A stretch of DNA of 64,000 bases, from NCBI RefSeq assembly GCF_000378945.1, contig NZ_KB900539.1:1313661-1377660 (forward strand), written 5' to 3'. This stretch comes from Methyloversatilis universalis EHg5. Lineage in GTDB: Bacteria; Pseudomonadota; Gammaproteobacteria; Burkholderiales; Rhodocyclaceae. Of the stretch, positions 16,557-24,093 are shown one piece after another; the first letter of the stretch is position 1; every line of letters starts with the position of its first letter. The notes under the pieces are model-generated. The model searched no databases, was not told the origin of the DNA, and saw only the letters and a program-made list of their open reading frames with translations. Position numbers and translations under genes: made by a program.

Positions 16557-16731
16557 CACGGTTATGGTTAAAGTGCCACTTCCGCAAGGATGACCGCAGA
16601 CGCTGTCGGCGGTCAGCAGGGTCCGACGCATACACCTACCCGGTGGATGCCGAGTCTGTTTCAACCGTCGAACCGGGACGGCAACGGTTACCACCGTTGT
16701 CCGAGTCCGGTGGATATTGGAGAGCGTCGCA

Positions 16732-18597
<1,866 letters not shown>

Positions 18598-18604
18598 TGG
18601 CGAC

Positions 18605-18631
18605 GCAGGTCGCGGGGGTGCCGCGACCTGC
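18605..18631 (+). other. Perfect 11-bp hairpin just after pckG
   Basis: GCAGGTCGCGG and CCGCGACCTGC with a 5-base loop begin 8 bases after the stop codon. There is no T-tract; it may protect the mRNA 3' end or act with the true terminator downstream. Confidence 0.6.
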
Positions 18632-18655
18632 TGCACACGCCACACAGACCGCTTC

Positions 18656-18684
18656 AAAGCCCGCTTCGGCGGGCTTTTTTCTTT
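18656..18684 (+). terminator. Rho-independent terminator of pckG
   Basis: A 9-bp stem built on AGCCCGC/GCGGGCT with a TTCG loop is followed by a T-rich run (TTTTTTCTTTT). Confidence 0.9.
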
Positions 18685-18725
18685 TCCGCGACACGAGCGC
18701 TCCGCGCCCGCCTGCGCAAGCGGGC

Positions 18726-18753
18726 TTGACCCGGCGCTTCCCGATCGCATACC
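18726..18753 (+). promoter_or_regulatory. Possible promoter of the B12 operon
   Basis: TTGACC (18726-18731), 16-bp spacer, CATACC (18748-18753), ending just before the riboswitch. The -35 is good and the -10 weak. Confidence 0.4.
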
Positions 18754-18760
18754 CTGCGCA

Positions 18761-18960
18761 CGCCTCAGGTGCCCCGCGCGGCTGTCGTCGCAAGGGGTGA
18801 AACGGGAAGTCCGGTGCGCATGACCGCCTCACGGTGATGCAATTCCGGCGCTGCCCCCGCAACGGTAAGCGAGTCGTAGCGCTCCATTCAGCCACTGTGC
18901 CCCACGCACGGGAAGGCGGATCGCACACACCCCCTCGCAAGCCCGGAGACCGGCCTGGCG
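18761..18960 (+). ncRNA. Cobalamin (adenosylcobalamin-class) riboswitch
   Basis: Conserved pieces occur in order: GGGTGAAACGGGAA at 18795-18808, CTGCCCCCGCAACGGTAA at 18851-18868, GCCACTG near 18891, and the B12 box AAGCCCGGAGACCGGCCTG at 18939-18957. P1 can form between the start (CGCC..AGGT) and end (ACCGGCCTGGCG). About 180 bases of leader follow before the first start codon, with several possible hairpins (18964-18979; 19106-19124) that could form the expression platform. It lies upstream of two surface proteins and a BtuB-like receptor, all expected to be repressed when B12 is plentiful. Confidence 0.95.
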
Positions 18961-19141
18961 CGCAAGGTCTTTTGACCTTCGGACCGATGGCTGCGGTGGG
19001 CGGCCTGGGGCGCATGCGTTCGTTCGGCCGCCACGCGGCCGTCATGTTACGTTCCTGTGCGTTTCTCGCGCGGCCTGCCGCGTGCCATCGGATTTTCTGC
19101 TTTTCGCCGGCGGGTGATGCCGGCAATGCACGGAGATCTGC

Positions 19142-19960
19142 ATGCGTACCTCACTGACCCCCCTGATCGCTCTGGCCGGCCTCGCGCTGGCCCCTTCCGC
19201 ACACGCCGGCCCGTTCGCGCCGGCGGCCGGCAGCGCCGGCTCCACCGCCCTGCACAAGGACAATGCCGCTTTCGTCCAGTGGGCCACCGGCTACCGCGAC
19301 TACCAGCCGGGCCCCAACGTCGACGCCGCCTGGAAGAACCCGGCCAAGGGCCTGGGCAAGGCCGAAGGCACATCCACCGATGTAGTGGTGCTGGGCGACG
19401 GCGGCCGCATTACGCTCACTTTCGATGGCTACATCACCAACGGCGCCGGCGCCGATTTCGCGGTGTTCGAGAACAGCTTCAGCAACACCTTCCTCGAACT
19501 GGCTTTCGTCGAGGTGTCGTCCAACGGCAGCGACTTCTTCCGCTTCCCGAACTACTCCTTCACCGCCAGCCCGGTGTCCGGTTTCGGCAGCATCGATCCG
19601 ACCAATATCGACGGCCTGGCCGGCAAGTATCGCCAGGGCTACGGCACGCCCTTCGATCTGGACCAGCTGAGCGGCATCGCCGGGCTGGACGTGAACAGGG
19701 TGCAGTACGTGCGCCTGATCGACGTGATCGGCAACGGCTCGACCTTCGACAGCTACCCAGCCGCCTACGGCGGCCCGCACCCGATCTACGACCCGTACCC
19801 GACCTCGGGCAGCAGCGGCTTCGACCTCGACGCGGTGGGCGTCATCCACTACGCCGCCTTCGCCGCCCAGACACCGCCGGTGCCCGAACCGTCGCAGTGG
19901 GCGATGTACGCCGCCGCGCTGGGCCTGCTGTCTGTCGTCGTCCGCCGTTACCGCGCCTGA
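19142..19960 (+). CDS. B12-regulated PEP-CTERM surface protein
   Basis: A 272-residue exported protein of unknown biochemical function. It has a signal peptide (residues 1-22, ending AHA-G) and a beta-rich body with [20 protein letters not shown] and [11 protein letters not shown]. The C-terminus carries a PEP-CTERM sorting signal: VPEPS at about 247, a hydrophobic segment and the basic tail RRYRA. It should therefore be processed by an exosortase and displayed on the cell surface. Similar proteins are known beside B12 riboswitches and BtuB receptors, so a role in capturing corrinoids is a reasonable inference. GGAG lies about 7 bases before the ATG. It is the first gene after the riboswitch. 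Confidence 0.88.
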
Positions 19961-19986
19961 AGGGCGCCGCACAGGGAATCCCGCAC

Positions 19987-20775
19987 ATGAACATCCGCAT
20001 GCTTGCCTGCGCCCTCGGCGCGTTCGCCCTCAGCCAGTCGACCGCTGCCGCGGTCGAGGTATCGACCTTCGACGACCTGGCACTGAGTCCGGAAAGCCAT
20101 TTTTTCCCGAAGGTGTCCACGACCTTCACCAGCGGTGCCGCCACTTTCAACCACAGCTTCAACGACTGGGGCGGCGACTGCTGCCATACCGACTGGGTGT
20201 ATTCCAACCGCACCGACACCACCACCGAGGGCTACCTGAACCAGCACAGCGCCATCGCCGGCGGCGGCGCCCAGGGCTCGGCGAATTACGCGGTGGCCAA
20301 TGCCGGTGCGCCGGTGGCGACCTTCGCCGCACCGGTCACCGTGCTGGGCGCCTTCTTCACCAACAGCACCTATGCCGCGCTGTCCATGCTCAATGGTGAC
20401 GGTTTCGCCAAGCGCTTCGGCGGCGAGGACGGCCGTGATGCCGACTGGTTCATGCTCACCGTGACCGGTCTCGACAGCGTCGGCGGGCACACCGGCAGCG
20501 TCGATTTCATGCTGGCGGACTATCGCTACGCCAACGGCGCCGACGACTACATCGTGACCGACTGGCGCTGGCTGGATCTGAGCGGACTGGGCACCGTGAG
20601 CGGCCTGCAGTTCGCGCTGTCATCGAGCGACAGCGGCGCCTTCGGCATGAATACGCCGGCCTATTTCGCGATGGACAGCCTGGCGGTGGCCGCAGTGCCG
20701 GAACCGGAGCAGGCCGCACTGCTGCTGGCCGGTCTGGCGCTGGTGAGCGCGGTCGCCCGCCGTCGCATGGCCTGA
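19987..20775 (+). CDS. DUF4465-like PEP-CTERM protein, probable corrinoid-binding surface protein
   Basis: A 262-residue secreted protein. The signal peptide (ACALGAFALSQSTAAA) precedes a DUF4465-like domain with FDDLALSPESHF, SGAATFNHSFNDWGG, YSNRTDTTTEGYLNQHSA, GSANYAVAN and NSTYAALSMLNGDGFAKRFGG. It ends in a PEP-CTERM signal (VPEPE, hydrophobic stretch, RRRMA). DUF4465 proteins of Bacteroidetes have been linked to B12 binding at the cell surface; here the lipoprotein anchor is replaced by an exosortase signal. It begins 26 bases after the first surface protein gene and 57 bases before btuB. The family assignment is from remembered motifs and should be confirmed by profile search. Confidence 0.85.
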   Translation: MNIRMLACALGAFALSQSTAAAVEVSTFDDLALSPESHFFPKVSTTFTSGAATFNHSFNDWGGDCCHTDWVYSNRTDTTTEGYLNQHSAIAGGGAQGSANYAVANAGAPVATFAAPVTVLGAFFTNSTYAALSMLNGDGFAKRFGGEDGRDADWFMLTVTGLDSVGGHTGSVDFMLADYRYANGADDYIVTDWRWLDLSGLGTVSGLQFALSSSDSGAFGMNTPAYFAMDSLAVAAVPEPEQAALLLAGLALVSAVARRRMA

Positions 20776-20832
20776 CGCAGATACAGGCACGGCGCCGCCC
20801 CGCGTGGTGGCGCCGGTGCGGAGGCGACTTTC

Positions 20833-22884
20833 ATGAACATCCCGTTCAGGCCGGCGCTTGCCGGCCTGCTGTGCCTGCTCGCGCCGCACGCGCGGGCAGA
20901 CGACGCGCTGCGGCTGGACGAAGTGGTGATCAGTGCGCCGTCGGCCGACGACACCTTGCGCACCGTGCCGCATGGCGTGTCGGTCATCACCGCCGGTGAC
21001 ATCGAACGCGCCGGTGCACAGGGCGTGGGCGATCTGCTCAGCCGCGAGGCCGGACTCAACCTGCAGAGCTATTTCGGCCGCGACAAGGGCGCCACGGTCG
21101 ACATGCGCGGCCTGGGCGCGACCGCGGTCAGCAACGTACTGGTGCTGGTCGATGGCGTGCGGCTCAATGCCGACGACCTGTCGGGCGCCGATCTGTCGTC
21201 GGTCGCGCTGTCGCAGGTCGAACGCATCGAGGTGCTGCGTGGCGCAGGTGCCGTACGCTACGGCGACGGCGCGGTCGGCGGCATCGTGCATATCCAGACA
21301 CGGCGCCCGCGGCCCGGGCCGCTCACCGGTCAGCTCGATCTGCGCAGCGGCGCCTGGGGCACACGCGAGGCGCGGCTGCGCGCCAGCGGCGGCGCCGGGC
21401 CGCTGGCCGCCAGTGTCACGCTGAGCCGGCTGGACAGCGACGGCTATCGCGACAACGACCGCTACGCCGCGCGCGACAGCGCGCTCGAACTGAGCCTGCT
21501 GCCGGACGGGCCGTGGTCCTTCATCGACCTCAGCCTGCGTGCCGCGCGCCACATCGACGAATATGGACTGCCGGGGCCGGTCAGCGCTGAAGCCTTTCGC
21601 GCCGGCAGCGCCCGGCGGCGGGCAAGCAGCGCGTCGCCGCAGGACGGCGGCAGCACCGACGACCGCACGCTGGGCGCCCGGCTGCGTGCCGACTTCGGCG
21701 ACGCCGGCCTGCTCACCCTGCAGCTCGATCATCGCGACCGCGAGAACCCGTACTTCATCGGCGTGCAGACTGGCGTTGCGCTGGCGGACCAGCGCAACGT
21801 GATCGATTCCACCCGGCGCGACCTGCGCATGACGCACGAACTGAGCGTCGACGCCTTCGGCCGGCGGCACGATCTGGCATTCGGCTACGTCAGCCAGTCG
21901 TCCGACTACCTGCGTCGCGAGAACGGCGATTCCGTGGTCGGCAATTCGACCCGGCGCAGCGGTGAACTGAATGGCCACGCCTGGTGGGGCGAGGGCGTGT
22001 TCAGGCTGGGGCAGGGCGTCAGCATCAACGCCGGCCTGCGTCGCGACCGCGCCGACAGCCGCATTACGGGCAGCCGCTACACGCGCGAATGCCAGTACAT
22101 CTTCATTCCGTTTCCGGTGGAAGTGCCGGGCAGCTGCGTGAATGCCTTCCGTGCGACCGACGCCACCGCGTCGGACTGGCGCAACCGGGCGAGCGAACTG
22201 GGGGCGAGCTGGCAGGTTTCGTCCGTGCTGACCGTGTTTGCCGCGGACAGCCGTCACTTCCGCAGTCCCAACATCGACGAACTCGCGCTTGCCGCGCCCG
22301 ACCTGCGTCCGCAGCGCGGCCGCACGCGCGAAGCCGGCCTGCGGGCGCGGAGCGACACGGTCGAATTCGGCGCTACGGTCTATCGCATGCACATTGAGGA
22401 CGAAATCTACTTCGACAGCGCCAGTGGCCTCAGCGTAAACCGCAACTACGCGCTGCCGACCGTGCGCACCGGCGTCGAAATCGATCTGCGCTGGCGGCTC
22501 CGGCCTTCGCTGCTGTTCGCCGCCAACGCCGGCTACGTGCAGCCGCGTTTCGAAGGCAGCGACGCCGATGTACCGCTGGTGCCGCGTCGCACCGCCAATC
22601 TGCGCATCGAGTGGACGCCGGCGGAGGCGCGGCGCATCACCTTCAGCGCCCGCCATGCCGGCCGCCGCTTCGACGGCAACGACCTCGACAACCGCAGCTT
22701 CGCGCCGCTGCCGTCGTACACCGTGTTTGACCTGGCGCTCAGCGTGCGCAGCGGCGCCGCCACCTGGTCGGCGGGGGTCAGCAACCTGTTCGACAAGGTG
22801 TATTCCACCATCGCCTACAGCAACACCTACTACCCGATGCCCGAGCGCACCGCGTGGATGGGCGTGAGCTGGCAGCTTGAGTGA
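20833..22884 (+). CDS. btuB: TonB-dependent vitamin B12 receptor (BtuB-like)
   Basis: An outer-membrane active transporter for cobalamin, powered by TonB/ExbBD encoded elsewhere. The 683-residue protein has a signal peptide (ending ARA-D), a TonB box (DEVVIS), a plug domain with DLLSREAGLNLQS, VDMRGLGATAVSNVLVLVDG and QVERIEVLRGAGAVRYGDGA, and a 22-strand-type barrel. The extreme C-terminus is GVSWQLE and lacks the terminal aromatic residue usual for barrel insertion. The substrate is inferred from the riboswitch upstream. GGAG precedes the ATG. Periplasmic BtuF and the BtuCD importer are not in this window. Confidence 0.9.
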   Translation: MNIPFRPALAGLLCLLAPHARADDALRLDEVVISAPSADDTLRTVPHGVSVITAGDIERAGAQGVGDLLSREAGLNLQSYFGRDKGATVDMRGLGATAVSNVLVLVDGVRLNADDLSGADLSSVALSQVERIEVLRGAGAVRYGDGAVGGIVHIQTRRPRPGPLTGQLDLRSGAWGTREARLRASGGAGPLAASVTLSRLDSDGYRDNDRYAARDSALELSLLPDGPWSFIDLSLRAARHIDEYGLPGPVSAEAFRAGSARRRASSASPQDGGSTDDRTLGARLRADFGDAGLLTLQLDHRDRENPYFIGVQTGVALADQRNVIDSTRRDLRMTHELSVDAFGRRHDLAFGYVSQSSDYLRRENGDSVVGNSTRRSGELNGHAWWGEGVFRLGQGVSINAGLRRDRADSRITGSRYTRECQYIFIPFPVEVPGSCVNAFRATDATASDWRNRASELGASWQVSSVLTVFAADSRHFRSPNIDELALAAPDLRPQRGRTREAGLRARSDTVEFGATVYRMHIEDEIYFDSASGLSVNRNYALPTVRTGVEIDLRWRLRPSLLFAANAGYVQPRFEGSDADVPLVPRRTANLRIEWTPAEARRITFSARHAGRRFDGNDLDNRSFAPLPSYTVFDLALSVRSGAATWSAGVSNLFDKVYSTIAYSNTYYPMPERTAWMGVSWQLE

Positions 22885-22904
22885 GCAGGGCGGTTGTGCA
22901 ATGA

Positions 22905-22930
22905 AAAGGGGCCGCTGATGCGGCCCCTTT
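22905..22930. terminator. Bidirectional terminator between btuB and dnaJ
   Basis: An 11-bp stem AAAGGGGCCGC/GCGGCCCCTTT with a TGAT loop lies between the convergent genes. T-runs are present in both directions. Confidence 0.85.
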
Positions 22931-22959
22931 CGTCCTTCCGGATGCGGATCGCGCGCCGG

Positions 22960-24093
22960 TCAGCCGGCGAAGAAATCCTTCATCTTGTCCATCCACGACT
23001 TCGCGCGCGGGCTGTGATTGGCTTCGTCGCTGCGGTTGATGTCGTCGAATTCCTTCAGCAGCTCACGCTGGCGCGAAGTCAGGTTCACCGGCGTTTCGAC
23101 CACCACATGGCACATCAGGTCGCCCGGGTAGCTGCTGCGCACGCCCTTGATGCCCTTGCCGCGCAGGCGGAACACCTTGCCGGACTGGGTTTCGGCCGGA
23201 ATCTTGATCTTGGCCGCGCCATCCAGCGTCGGAATCTCGATTTCGCCGCCCAGCGCCGCGGTGGCGAAGCCGATGGGCATTTCGCAGTGCAGATCGTCGC
23301 CCTCGCGCTGGAACACCGCGTGCGGCTTGATGTGGATCTGCACGTACAGGTCGCCGGCCGGGCCGCCGCCCTGGCCGCGCTCGCCTTCACCGGCCAGACG
23401 GATGCGGTCGCCCTCGTCGATGCCGGCCGGAATCTTCACCTGCAGCGTCTTGCTGCCCTTGACGCGCCCGGCGCCATGGCAGTCGTTGCACGGGTCCTTC
23501 ACCATCTTGCCGGTGCCGTGGCACTTCGGGCAGGTCTGCTGGATCGAGAAGAAGCCCTGCTGCATGCGTACCTGACCCACGCCGTTGCAGGTGGTGCAGG
23601 TGACCGGCTTGGTGCCCGCCTTGGCGCCGGTGCCGCCGCAGCTGCCGCAGTCGTCCATGGTGGGGATGCGGATGCGGGTGTCGGTGCCGCGCGCCGCTTC
23701 TTCCAGCGACACTTCGAGGTTGTAGCGCAGGTCGGCACCGCGGTAGACACCGCTGCGACCGCCGCCGCGGCCGCCCTGGTTGCCGAAGATTTCTCCGAAA
23801 ATGTCGCCGAAGGCGTCGCCGAATCCGCCGAATCCCTGGCCGCCGCCCGCGCCGCCACCCATGTTCGGGTCGACGCCGGCGTGGCCGTACTGGTCGTAGG
23901 CCGCGCGCTTCTGGCCGTCAGACAGGATTTCGTAGGCTTCCTTCGCTTCCTTGAACTTGTCCTCGGCTTCCTTGCTGTCCGGATTGCGGTCCGGGTGGTA
24001 CTTCATCGCCAGCTTGCGGTAAGCCTTCTTGATTTCGTCATCGGAGGCGTCGCGGTTGACGCCGAGGATGTCGTAAAAGTCTTTCTTCGCCAT
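22960..24093 (-). CDS. dnaJ: Chaperone DnaJ (Hsp40)
   Basis: Co-chaperone that delivers unfolded clients to DnaK and stimulates its ATPase. The J-domain with HPD ([10 protein letters not shown]) is at residues 1-70, a Gly/Phe-rich linker covers about 76-110, and four CxxCxGxG zinc repeats follow ([32 protein letters not shown]). The C-terminal client domains complete a normal 377-residue protein. It lies about 100 bases after dnaK; the gap contains the 16-bp palindrome at 24172-24187. Confidence 0.98.

Follow-up and report, generated by a model that had tools for sequence, protein, structure and literature searches.

A cobalamin-riboswitch operon of Methyloversatilis universalis encodes a remote homologue of the BtuH B12-binding domain and a DUF4465 protein, both with PEP-CTERM-type ends, ahead of a BtuB-like receptor

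Surface capture of vitamin B12 (cobalamin) is an already published concept for Bacteroides, and it has so far been studied mostly in the lipoproteins of these gut bacteria, of which BtuG, BtuH, BtuJ and BtuK1 are known B12 binders (PMC12751083, PMC10404256, PMC8941943). The BtuB-BtuG surface complex (8blw; PMC10404256) joins a TonB receptor to co-expressed surface B12 binders. BtuH2 of Bacteroides thetaiotaomicron (7biz) is a surface lipoprotein encoded in a cobalamin-riboswitch operon with a BtuB-type receptor, and its B12-binding domain is reported to be without known structural homologues (PMC8941943). BtuJ belongs to the DUF4465 family (PF14717; 9fct, 9i2l, 9hmu; PMC12751083, PMC13398666), in which B12 binding was shown for eight divergent members, the newly tested ones having been chosen partly for good expression (PMC13398666); more than 70% of DUF4465 proteins are predicted lipoproteins and the others carry periplasmic targeting signals (PMC12751083/PMC13398666). 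We analysed a stretch of 64,000 nucleotides of Methyloversatilis universalis EHg5 (the window; contig NZ_KB900539.1, positions 1,313,661 to 1,377,660), in which a cobalamin riboswitch is followed by genes for a secreted protein that we call SURF1, a secreted DUF4465 protein and a BtuB-like receptor. The similarity of SURF1 to the BtuH domain is well supported as remote homology, and we consider it probable that this is a B12-repressed scavenging operon, in which BtuH-type and BtuJ-type domains sorted by an exosortase capture B12 and hand it over to the receptor. The elements of the operon, in window positions, are the following.

18750-18972, plus strand: cobalamin riboswitch aptamer RF00174, matched over the complete model 1-189 (102.4 bits, with 31.5 required; E 1.7e-24)
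18973-19141, plus strand: leader from the aptamer to the first start codon (folding -89.7 kcal/mol, z -3.56)
19142-19960, plus strand: SURF1, a secreted BtuH-domain-like protein of 272 residues (signal peptide; profile and fold comparison)
19472-19474, plus strand: Asn111 of SURF1 (N89 in the trimmed domain), aligned with BtuH2 Asn399 (PMC8941943)
19877-19948, plus strand: PEP-CTERM-type tail of SURF1, residues 246-269, read by eye (PF07589 match E 0.002)
19987-20775, plus strand: DUF4465 (BtuJ-type) secreted protein of 262 residues (PF14717, E 1.8e-51)
20650-20667, plus strand: NTPAYF, HI loop of the DUF4465 protein, residues 222-227 (loop described in PMC13398666)
20692-20766, plus strand: PEP-CTERM tail of the DUF4465 protein, residues 236-260 (PF07589, 22.1 bits, over the cut-off)
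20833-22884, plus strand: TonB-dependent outer-membrane receptor, BtuB-like, 683 residues (plug and barrel profiles)

Our first-pass annotation of this DNA had described a complete riboswitch and three closely spaced genes on one strand, for two secreted proteins with PEP-CTERM ends, the second of them DUF4465-like, and a BtuB-like receptor. This description stood throughout, with gaps of 26 bases between the SURF1 and DUF4465 genes and 57 bases between the latter and the receptor gene. In the proposed mechanism the riboswitch would repress, so that the three genes would be expressed when cobalamin is scarce. SURF1 and the DUF4465 protein would then be secreted, have their PEP-CTERM tails processed by one of the two exosortases of the genome, and come to lie on the outer surface or within the extracellular matrix. 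There they would bind cobamides and deliver them to the TonB receptor expressed with them, which would import them. We infer this hand-over and its order, as well as the exosortase processing, the retention at the surface and the substrate of the receptor.

SURF1 consists of a single domain of 224 residues. Neither the body of the window protein nor any of 74 trimmed SURF1 sequences contained a Pfam domain over its cut-off, Ig-like/PKD and propeller domains included. A TgMIC1 match (E 0.019, below cut-off) was regarded as chance, a second DUF4465 domain was ruled out by profile alignment (hhalign, P 0.4), and a profile of 14 SURF1 sequences gave no match in the PDB up to E 5. With the same 14-sequence alignment, a wide scan found at least 513 relatives, of which the best 80 were kept as our set of loci. 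The kept set is biased to close, pattern-bearing sequences, since DFAVFEN[SG] and S[ND]Gx[DN]FFRF served as patterns in the scan, and invariance in these stretches is partly imposed. When the SURF1 sequence profile was compared with the PDB, the only chain below E 0.1 was BtuG1 (BtuGH), matched in its BtuH half (E 0.022), and with that 49-residue segment we fetched BtuH genes from class and order genomes around a Bacteroidales record; one of them, at locus L137, matches 7biz at E 1.4e-119.

Alignment of 74 SURF1 sequences with 35 distinct BtuH domains gave a hhalign probability of 95.5 (E 1.4e-8, score 61.4), against a score of 19.1 for the reversed control and at most 23.6 for the other 59 of the 60 controls, which were shuffles. 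Fourteen close SURF1 relatives that had not been chosen by pattern also aligned with the 35 domains (probability 81.6, E 1.1e-5, score 42.2; 40 shuffles at most 23.2), and a comparison with seven BtuH domains gave a probability of 77.4 and E 2e-5. At E<1 a hidden Markov model (HMM) of BtuH matched 75 of 81 SURF1 open reading frames (ORFs; best E 9e-6) and one of 2593 others, and the SURF1 HMM matched 34 of 35 BtuH ORFs (best 2.4e-7) with five further matches, at least three of which are copies of the same genes fetched twice. The structure of SURF1 predicted by AlphaFold2 from the 74-sequence alignment was confident (pLDDT 96.1, pTM 0.93), and when it was compared by Foldseek with 350,542 PDB chains BtuH2 (7biz) ranked first and second (E 6.5e-4 and 1.3e-3) and BtuG1/BtuGH, which contains a BtuH domain, fourth (E 2.5e-3). 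It is this combination of profile comparison and a confident model with 7biz as top match that leads us to count SURF1 as a remote homologue of the BtuH domain.

Of the B12-contact positions of BtuH2, two, Asn399 and Phe401, are kept in SURF1, with positions counted by hand on the 7biz alignment. Asn399, which contacts the phosphate of B12 (PMC8941943), is the Asn of GNAF and aligns with SURF1 N89 in 74/74 sequences, although this invariance is partly imposed by the pattern; Phe401 aligns with F91, present in 64/74. Compared with BtuH, SURF1 of the window is shorter and single-domain, it has none of the Ig-like PKD domains found in many but not all BtuH proteins, it has a PEP-CTERM-type tail where BtuH is a lipoprotein, and the sequence similarity is remote.

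The only non-SURF1 match of the BtuH HMM (L073:1307-2470, E 6.5e-9) adjoins a SURF1 gene on a Planctomycetota contig. It has no Pfam family over cut-off, with a dockerin-like end below cut-off, and its sequence reads as BtuH-like, intermediate between SURF1 and BtuH. A further weak likeness was found to the LIC_13355 lipoprotein family of Leptospira (NF033170), which matched 63 of the 74 SURF1 sequences (best E 8e-7), the window SURF1 reaching 22 bits of the 120 required. These weak matches suggest that the two proteins may share a domain. LIC_13355 has been studied as a host-matrix binder (PMC11891782); that its gene adjoins btuB was not confirmed from the papers, where LIC13354 is given as a hypothetical protein.

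The second protein of the operon is, judged by its sequence, certainly a true member of the DUF4465 family, scoring 175.5 bits with PF14717 against a cut-off of 25, and its best PDB matches are DUF4465 proteins, including the B12 complexes 9hmu (E 6.6e-29) and 9fct (E 3e-24). The HI loop of the family, GTPAYF/NTPAY, keeps its Tyr in 97% of homologues (PMC13398666); here it reads GMNTPAYF, and NTPAYF, with the conserved Tyr, is identical in 14/14 proteins compared. In the alignment with 9hmu, both proteins have a Tyr ahead of SMLNGDGF, which may correspond to the Tyr of the DE-loop helix (Y146 in BtuJ1). The link of DUF4465 to B12 capture, which the first-pass annotation had mentioned, is borne out by the binding experiments on the family (PMC13398666). 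As described for BtuJ, the gene shares its operon with a receptor and a riboswitch, but a PEP-CTERM tail is found where BtuJ-type proteins have a lipobox. DUF4465 genes are often near TonB receptors and often accompanied by further DUF families with a likeness to the proteins that assist B12 scavenging in B. thetaiotaomicron (PMC13398666), a remark that partly anticipates our finding on SURF1.

Both secreted proteins end in a tripartite signal, in SURF1 VPEP, a hydrophobic stretch and RRYRA, and in the DUF4465 protein Pro-Glu-Pro, a hydrophobic stretch and an Arg end; direct reading of the two sequences showed no lipobox Cys at the end of either signal peptide. In this C-terminal signal, and in the presence of two exosortase genes (PF09721) in the source genome, they resemble the PEP-CTERM/exosortase sorting system reportedly described by Haft and others (cited in PMC12530212). 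No PEP-CTERM cargo combining a cobalamin riboswitch with B12-capture domains was found in our literature searches. One alternative explanation would be that both are ordinary PEP-CTERM matrix proteins whose expression is by chance tied to B12 and which bind no cobamide. Other PEP-CTERM proteins are indeed frequent in the genus, as short tail-only matches indicate, but we consider this very improbable: the second protein has the domain and loop of DUF4465, a family throughout which B12 binding has been shown (PMC13398666), SURF1 is homologous to BtuH, and homologues in other phyla keep the riboswitch without PEP-CTERM tails.

SURF1 proteins end in several ways. Among the 81 SURF1 ORFs, simple patterns, which give a crude classification, assigned 19 tails as PEP-CTERM-like, 10 as VPxPA-like, 12 as like those of the type IX secretion system (T9SS), 8 as Gly-Cys-Phe and 32 as other, and a lipobox-like pattern was present in 2/81. 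The SURF1 proteins of L077-L079, L088, L090, L091 and L094 have a short tail in which GCF precedes I, V or L, and several adjoining DUF4465 proteins have it too; by title the GCF-tail loci are from Desulfobacteraceae, Deltaproteobacteria and unplaced Proteobacteria, and this tail is a possible further anchoring signal.

A second explanation places the capture away from the cell, with an exosortase releasing both proteins or fixing them in exopolysaccharide as a shed or matrix-bound B12 trap that is not docked to the receptor. The tails and exosortases would fit this, and vesicle-borne BtuJ acts at a distance in B. thetaiotaomicron (PMC12751083). One related locus (L069:2153-6003) has a c-di-GMP-I-GGC riboswitch (66.2 bits) immediately ahead of its DUF4465 gene, in addition to two cobalamin riboswitches, so that B12 and c-di-GMP may jointly control its B12 capture genes. 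The linkage to the receptor gene fits hand-over at the surface as well, and we regard capture away from the cell as unlikely.

We searched 121 genomes, the source genome and 120 relatives, for SURF1. SURF1 matches were present in 22, of which 14 were full-length and 8 short or partial, mostly to the tail; the 14 comprise 12 of the 13 same-genus genomes (source included) and two others. The riboswitch lies upstream of SURF1 in 14/14, and in all 13 relatives with full-length SURF1 the DUF4465 and receptor genes follow downstream in the same order, so the arrangement is more than chance. Absence of this order from related genomes had been named beforehand as grounds for abandoning the idea of a capture operon, and the order was kept in 14/14. 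In the 14 relatives, mean column identity was 82% for SURF1 and 74% for the DUF4465 protein. The first-pass annotation had also suggested that the organism built its own, exosortase-anchored equivalent of the Bacteroides capture system. The conserved order, the exosortase genes and the DUF4465 protein agree with that suggestion; only an independent origin is less apt, because the parts look homologous (to BtuJ and to the BtuH domain), and the operon is better seen as domains of the same kind under another sorting tag.

The best 80 loci of the wide scan come, by record title, from Proteobacteria, Planctomycetota, Verrucomicrobiota, Bacteroidota, Desulfobacterales and other 'delta' groups, Myxococcales, Spirochaetes and a few others. 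We searched them for RF00174 in 74 genomes holding SURF1 loci, leaving out L050-L052, L059 and L060, which were already counted as relatives. In 60/74 of these further genomes, from at least six phyla by record title, SURF1 has a cobalamin riboswitch on its own strand no more than 4 kb upstream. Placement was by matching coordinates without contig names, from which L100 was dropped (no riboswitch-like 3' end, and a contig not tied to the locus) and to which L079 was added. When 32 loci were scanned directly with cmscan, 26 had the riboswitch upstream of SURF1. The scan agreed with the coordinates except for L079, which it supplied; it found none at L081, outside the coordinate set. The other 34 placements rest on coordinates and a loose 3' pattern, which L088 and L129 lack. 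The B12-box pattern GCCAC[TC]G failed in 35/60 placed riboswitches, probably owing to variation of the box, and the looser 3' pattern was present in 57/60. As the 74 genomes hold 103 RF00174 matches, mostly one or two each, we estimate by hand that chance neighbourhood accounts for well under 1%.

Using HMMs built from the window operon and its relatives, we found SURF1 in 80/80 of these loci (81 ORFs), DUF4465 in 55, a same-strand BtuB-like receptor in 43, and neither in 16. Ten neighbour proteins from 8 of these 16 loci included four TonB plug proteins (L111, L119, L123, L125), so the receptor count is an underestimate. SURF1 and DUF4465 share one ORF at 14/80 loci, 11 of them Planctomycetota by title with 1063-2021 residues and two or three DUF4465 domains; the lengths of four large Planctomycetota fusions are minima because the ORFs run off the contig. 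Related arrangements were observed elsewhere. A protein of genome G391, from the class of a Bacteroidales record (L136:1252-3057), combines a BtuH domain, with 39% identity to the L137 domain, and DUF4465 (PF14717 185.2 bits, loop GLNTPSYF), the pairing also seen as SURF1-DUF4465 in other phyla. At L046:3205-5064, from one of the 13 relatives and from the taxonomic order of the source organism, and at L061:6797-8491 (Betaproteobacteria by title) a single ORF runs from SURF1 through an internal PEP-CTERM-like tail and another signal-like hydrophobic stretch to DUF4465, which has a PEP-CTERM tail too. Such an ORF might encode a polyprotein that is cleaved at the internal sorting signal, or might have arisen by small frame changes. 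SURF1 neighbours at L066:7723-8745, with a PEP-CTERM-like tail below cut-off, and L083:5799-6938 gave faint beta-propeller matches and are possible counterparts of BtuG. One protein scan of viral contigs found no SURF1 relative, and plasmids gave no SURF1 match.

Several observations weigh against reading the operon as a capture system with two binders. The Foldseek superposition of SURF1 on BtuH2 has a TM-score of 0.49 and a root-mean-square deviation of 10.9. Sandwiches of the muskelin-discoidin and CBM32 kinds score nearly as well, and one of these takes third rank. With TM-scores of about 0.5, high deviations and these other sandwiches so near, fold alone would not decide, and the sequence comparisons carry more weight. 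The SURF1-BtuH profile alignment spans about 53 columns in the N-terminal half only, and the aromatic corrin contacts of BtuH2 (His476, Tyr510, Trp511 and Trp577) fall outside it. Gln333 (PAPGQF) may match PAAGQ of SURF1, with Q in 38/74 and Ser in the window protein, but lies outside the aligned stretch. We therefore regard SURF1 as a well-supported homologue, and only infer that it binds B12. The tail of SURF1 scored 18.6 bits with PF07589, below the cut-off of 20.7. Exosortase presence alone does not predict the operon, since exosortase genes occur in 14/14 relatives tested, among them the same-genus genome G007, which lacks SURF1. In 14/74 further genomes no upstream riboswitch was placed, seven having no RF00174 match genome-wide (L070, L080, L089, L098, L113, L118, L122) and seven having matches that were not placed (L071, L073, L085, L086, L094, L100, L128), most near contig ends. 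Operon membership is no proof of binding either, because BtuL, a lipoprotein of a B. thetaiotaomicron riboswitch operon, does not bind B12 (PMC12751083).

Perhaps, then, only the DUF4465 protein binds B12, and SURF1 keeps a BtuH-type fold for receptor docking, help with release, matrix organisation or vesicle release. BtuL promotes early vesicle release and BtuK2 is non-binding although BtuK1 binds (PMC12751083), and the uncovered corrin-contact half of BtuH would fit such a role. However, conservation in the 14 relatives is higher for SURF1 than for the DUF4465 protein, and the part of SURF1 that aligns with the phosphate-contacting site of BtuH2 is its conserved core; for SURF1 we find this auxiliary role rather unlikely. 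Capture by both proteins stays our preferred reading.

The receptor matched PF07715 (plug) and PF00593 (barrel) over their cut-offs, and its best PDB match by sequence is BtuB of the E. coli type (1nqf, E 1.6e-22). A point on the same contrary side is its score of 145.3 bits with the B12 receptor equivalog TIGR01779, which requires 599.7, and we therefore call it only BtuB-like. Another is a second receptor of the genome, nearer to BtuB (366.5 bits, also below cut-off), which lies near a riboswitch and BtuCD-like genes. The source genome (4.09 Mb, two contigs) has two further cobalamin riboswitches (C1:3995404-3995601 and C1:4010941-4011162), and near them are CobO, CobQ, CbiB and BluB proteins over their cut-offs and BtuF-, BtuC-, BtuD- and CobN-like proteins below theirs. 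Given these genes and the second receptor, the window operon appears to provide an additional, specialised route of uptake to a bacterium that can also salvage or complete cobamides. Its three genes include no beta-propeller of the BtuG type, in which it differs from the BtuB-BtuG complex.

The strongly structured leader between aptamer and first start codon is a possible expression platform. Scanning 18590-22960 for simple consensus patterns revealed no promoter-like site and a single terminator-like hairpin, which is weak alone given that shuffled sequence averages 2.0.

18656-18677, plus strand: terminator-like hairpin and T-run, after the preceding gene (16717-18597) and before the riboswitch

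A PEP-CTERM B12 capture protein or a SURF1-type relative of BtuH was not found described in the open-licence literature that we searched, and relative to that literature the SURF1-BtuH link, its breadth and its PEP-CTERM form appear to be new. It may be that SURF1 founds a family of surface domains that bind cobamides in many phyla, with BtuH of Bacteroides as one of its derived branches, and that, paired or fused with DUF4465 under cobalamin riboswitches, it forms a general B12 capture module whose attachment is interchangeable by lineage, through exosortase tails, T9SS-like tails, Gly-Cys-Phe tails, lipidation or giant multidomain proteins; we consider the case for this wider proposal evenly balanced. 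The SURF1-BtuH link gives a testable role to hundreds of nameless genes in Proteobacteria, Planctomycetota, Verrucomicrobiota, Desulfobacteraceae and Bacteroidota, and the operon offers a defined exosortase cargo with a measurable ligand for locating exosortase-processed proteins.

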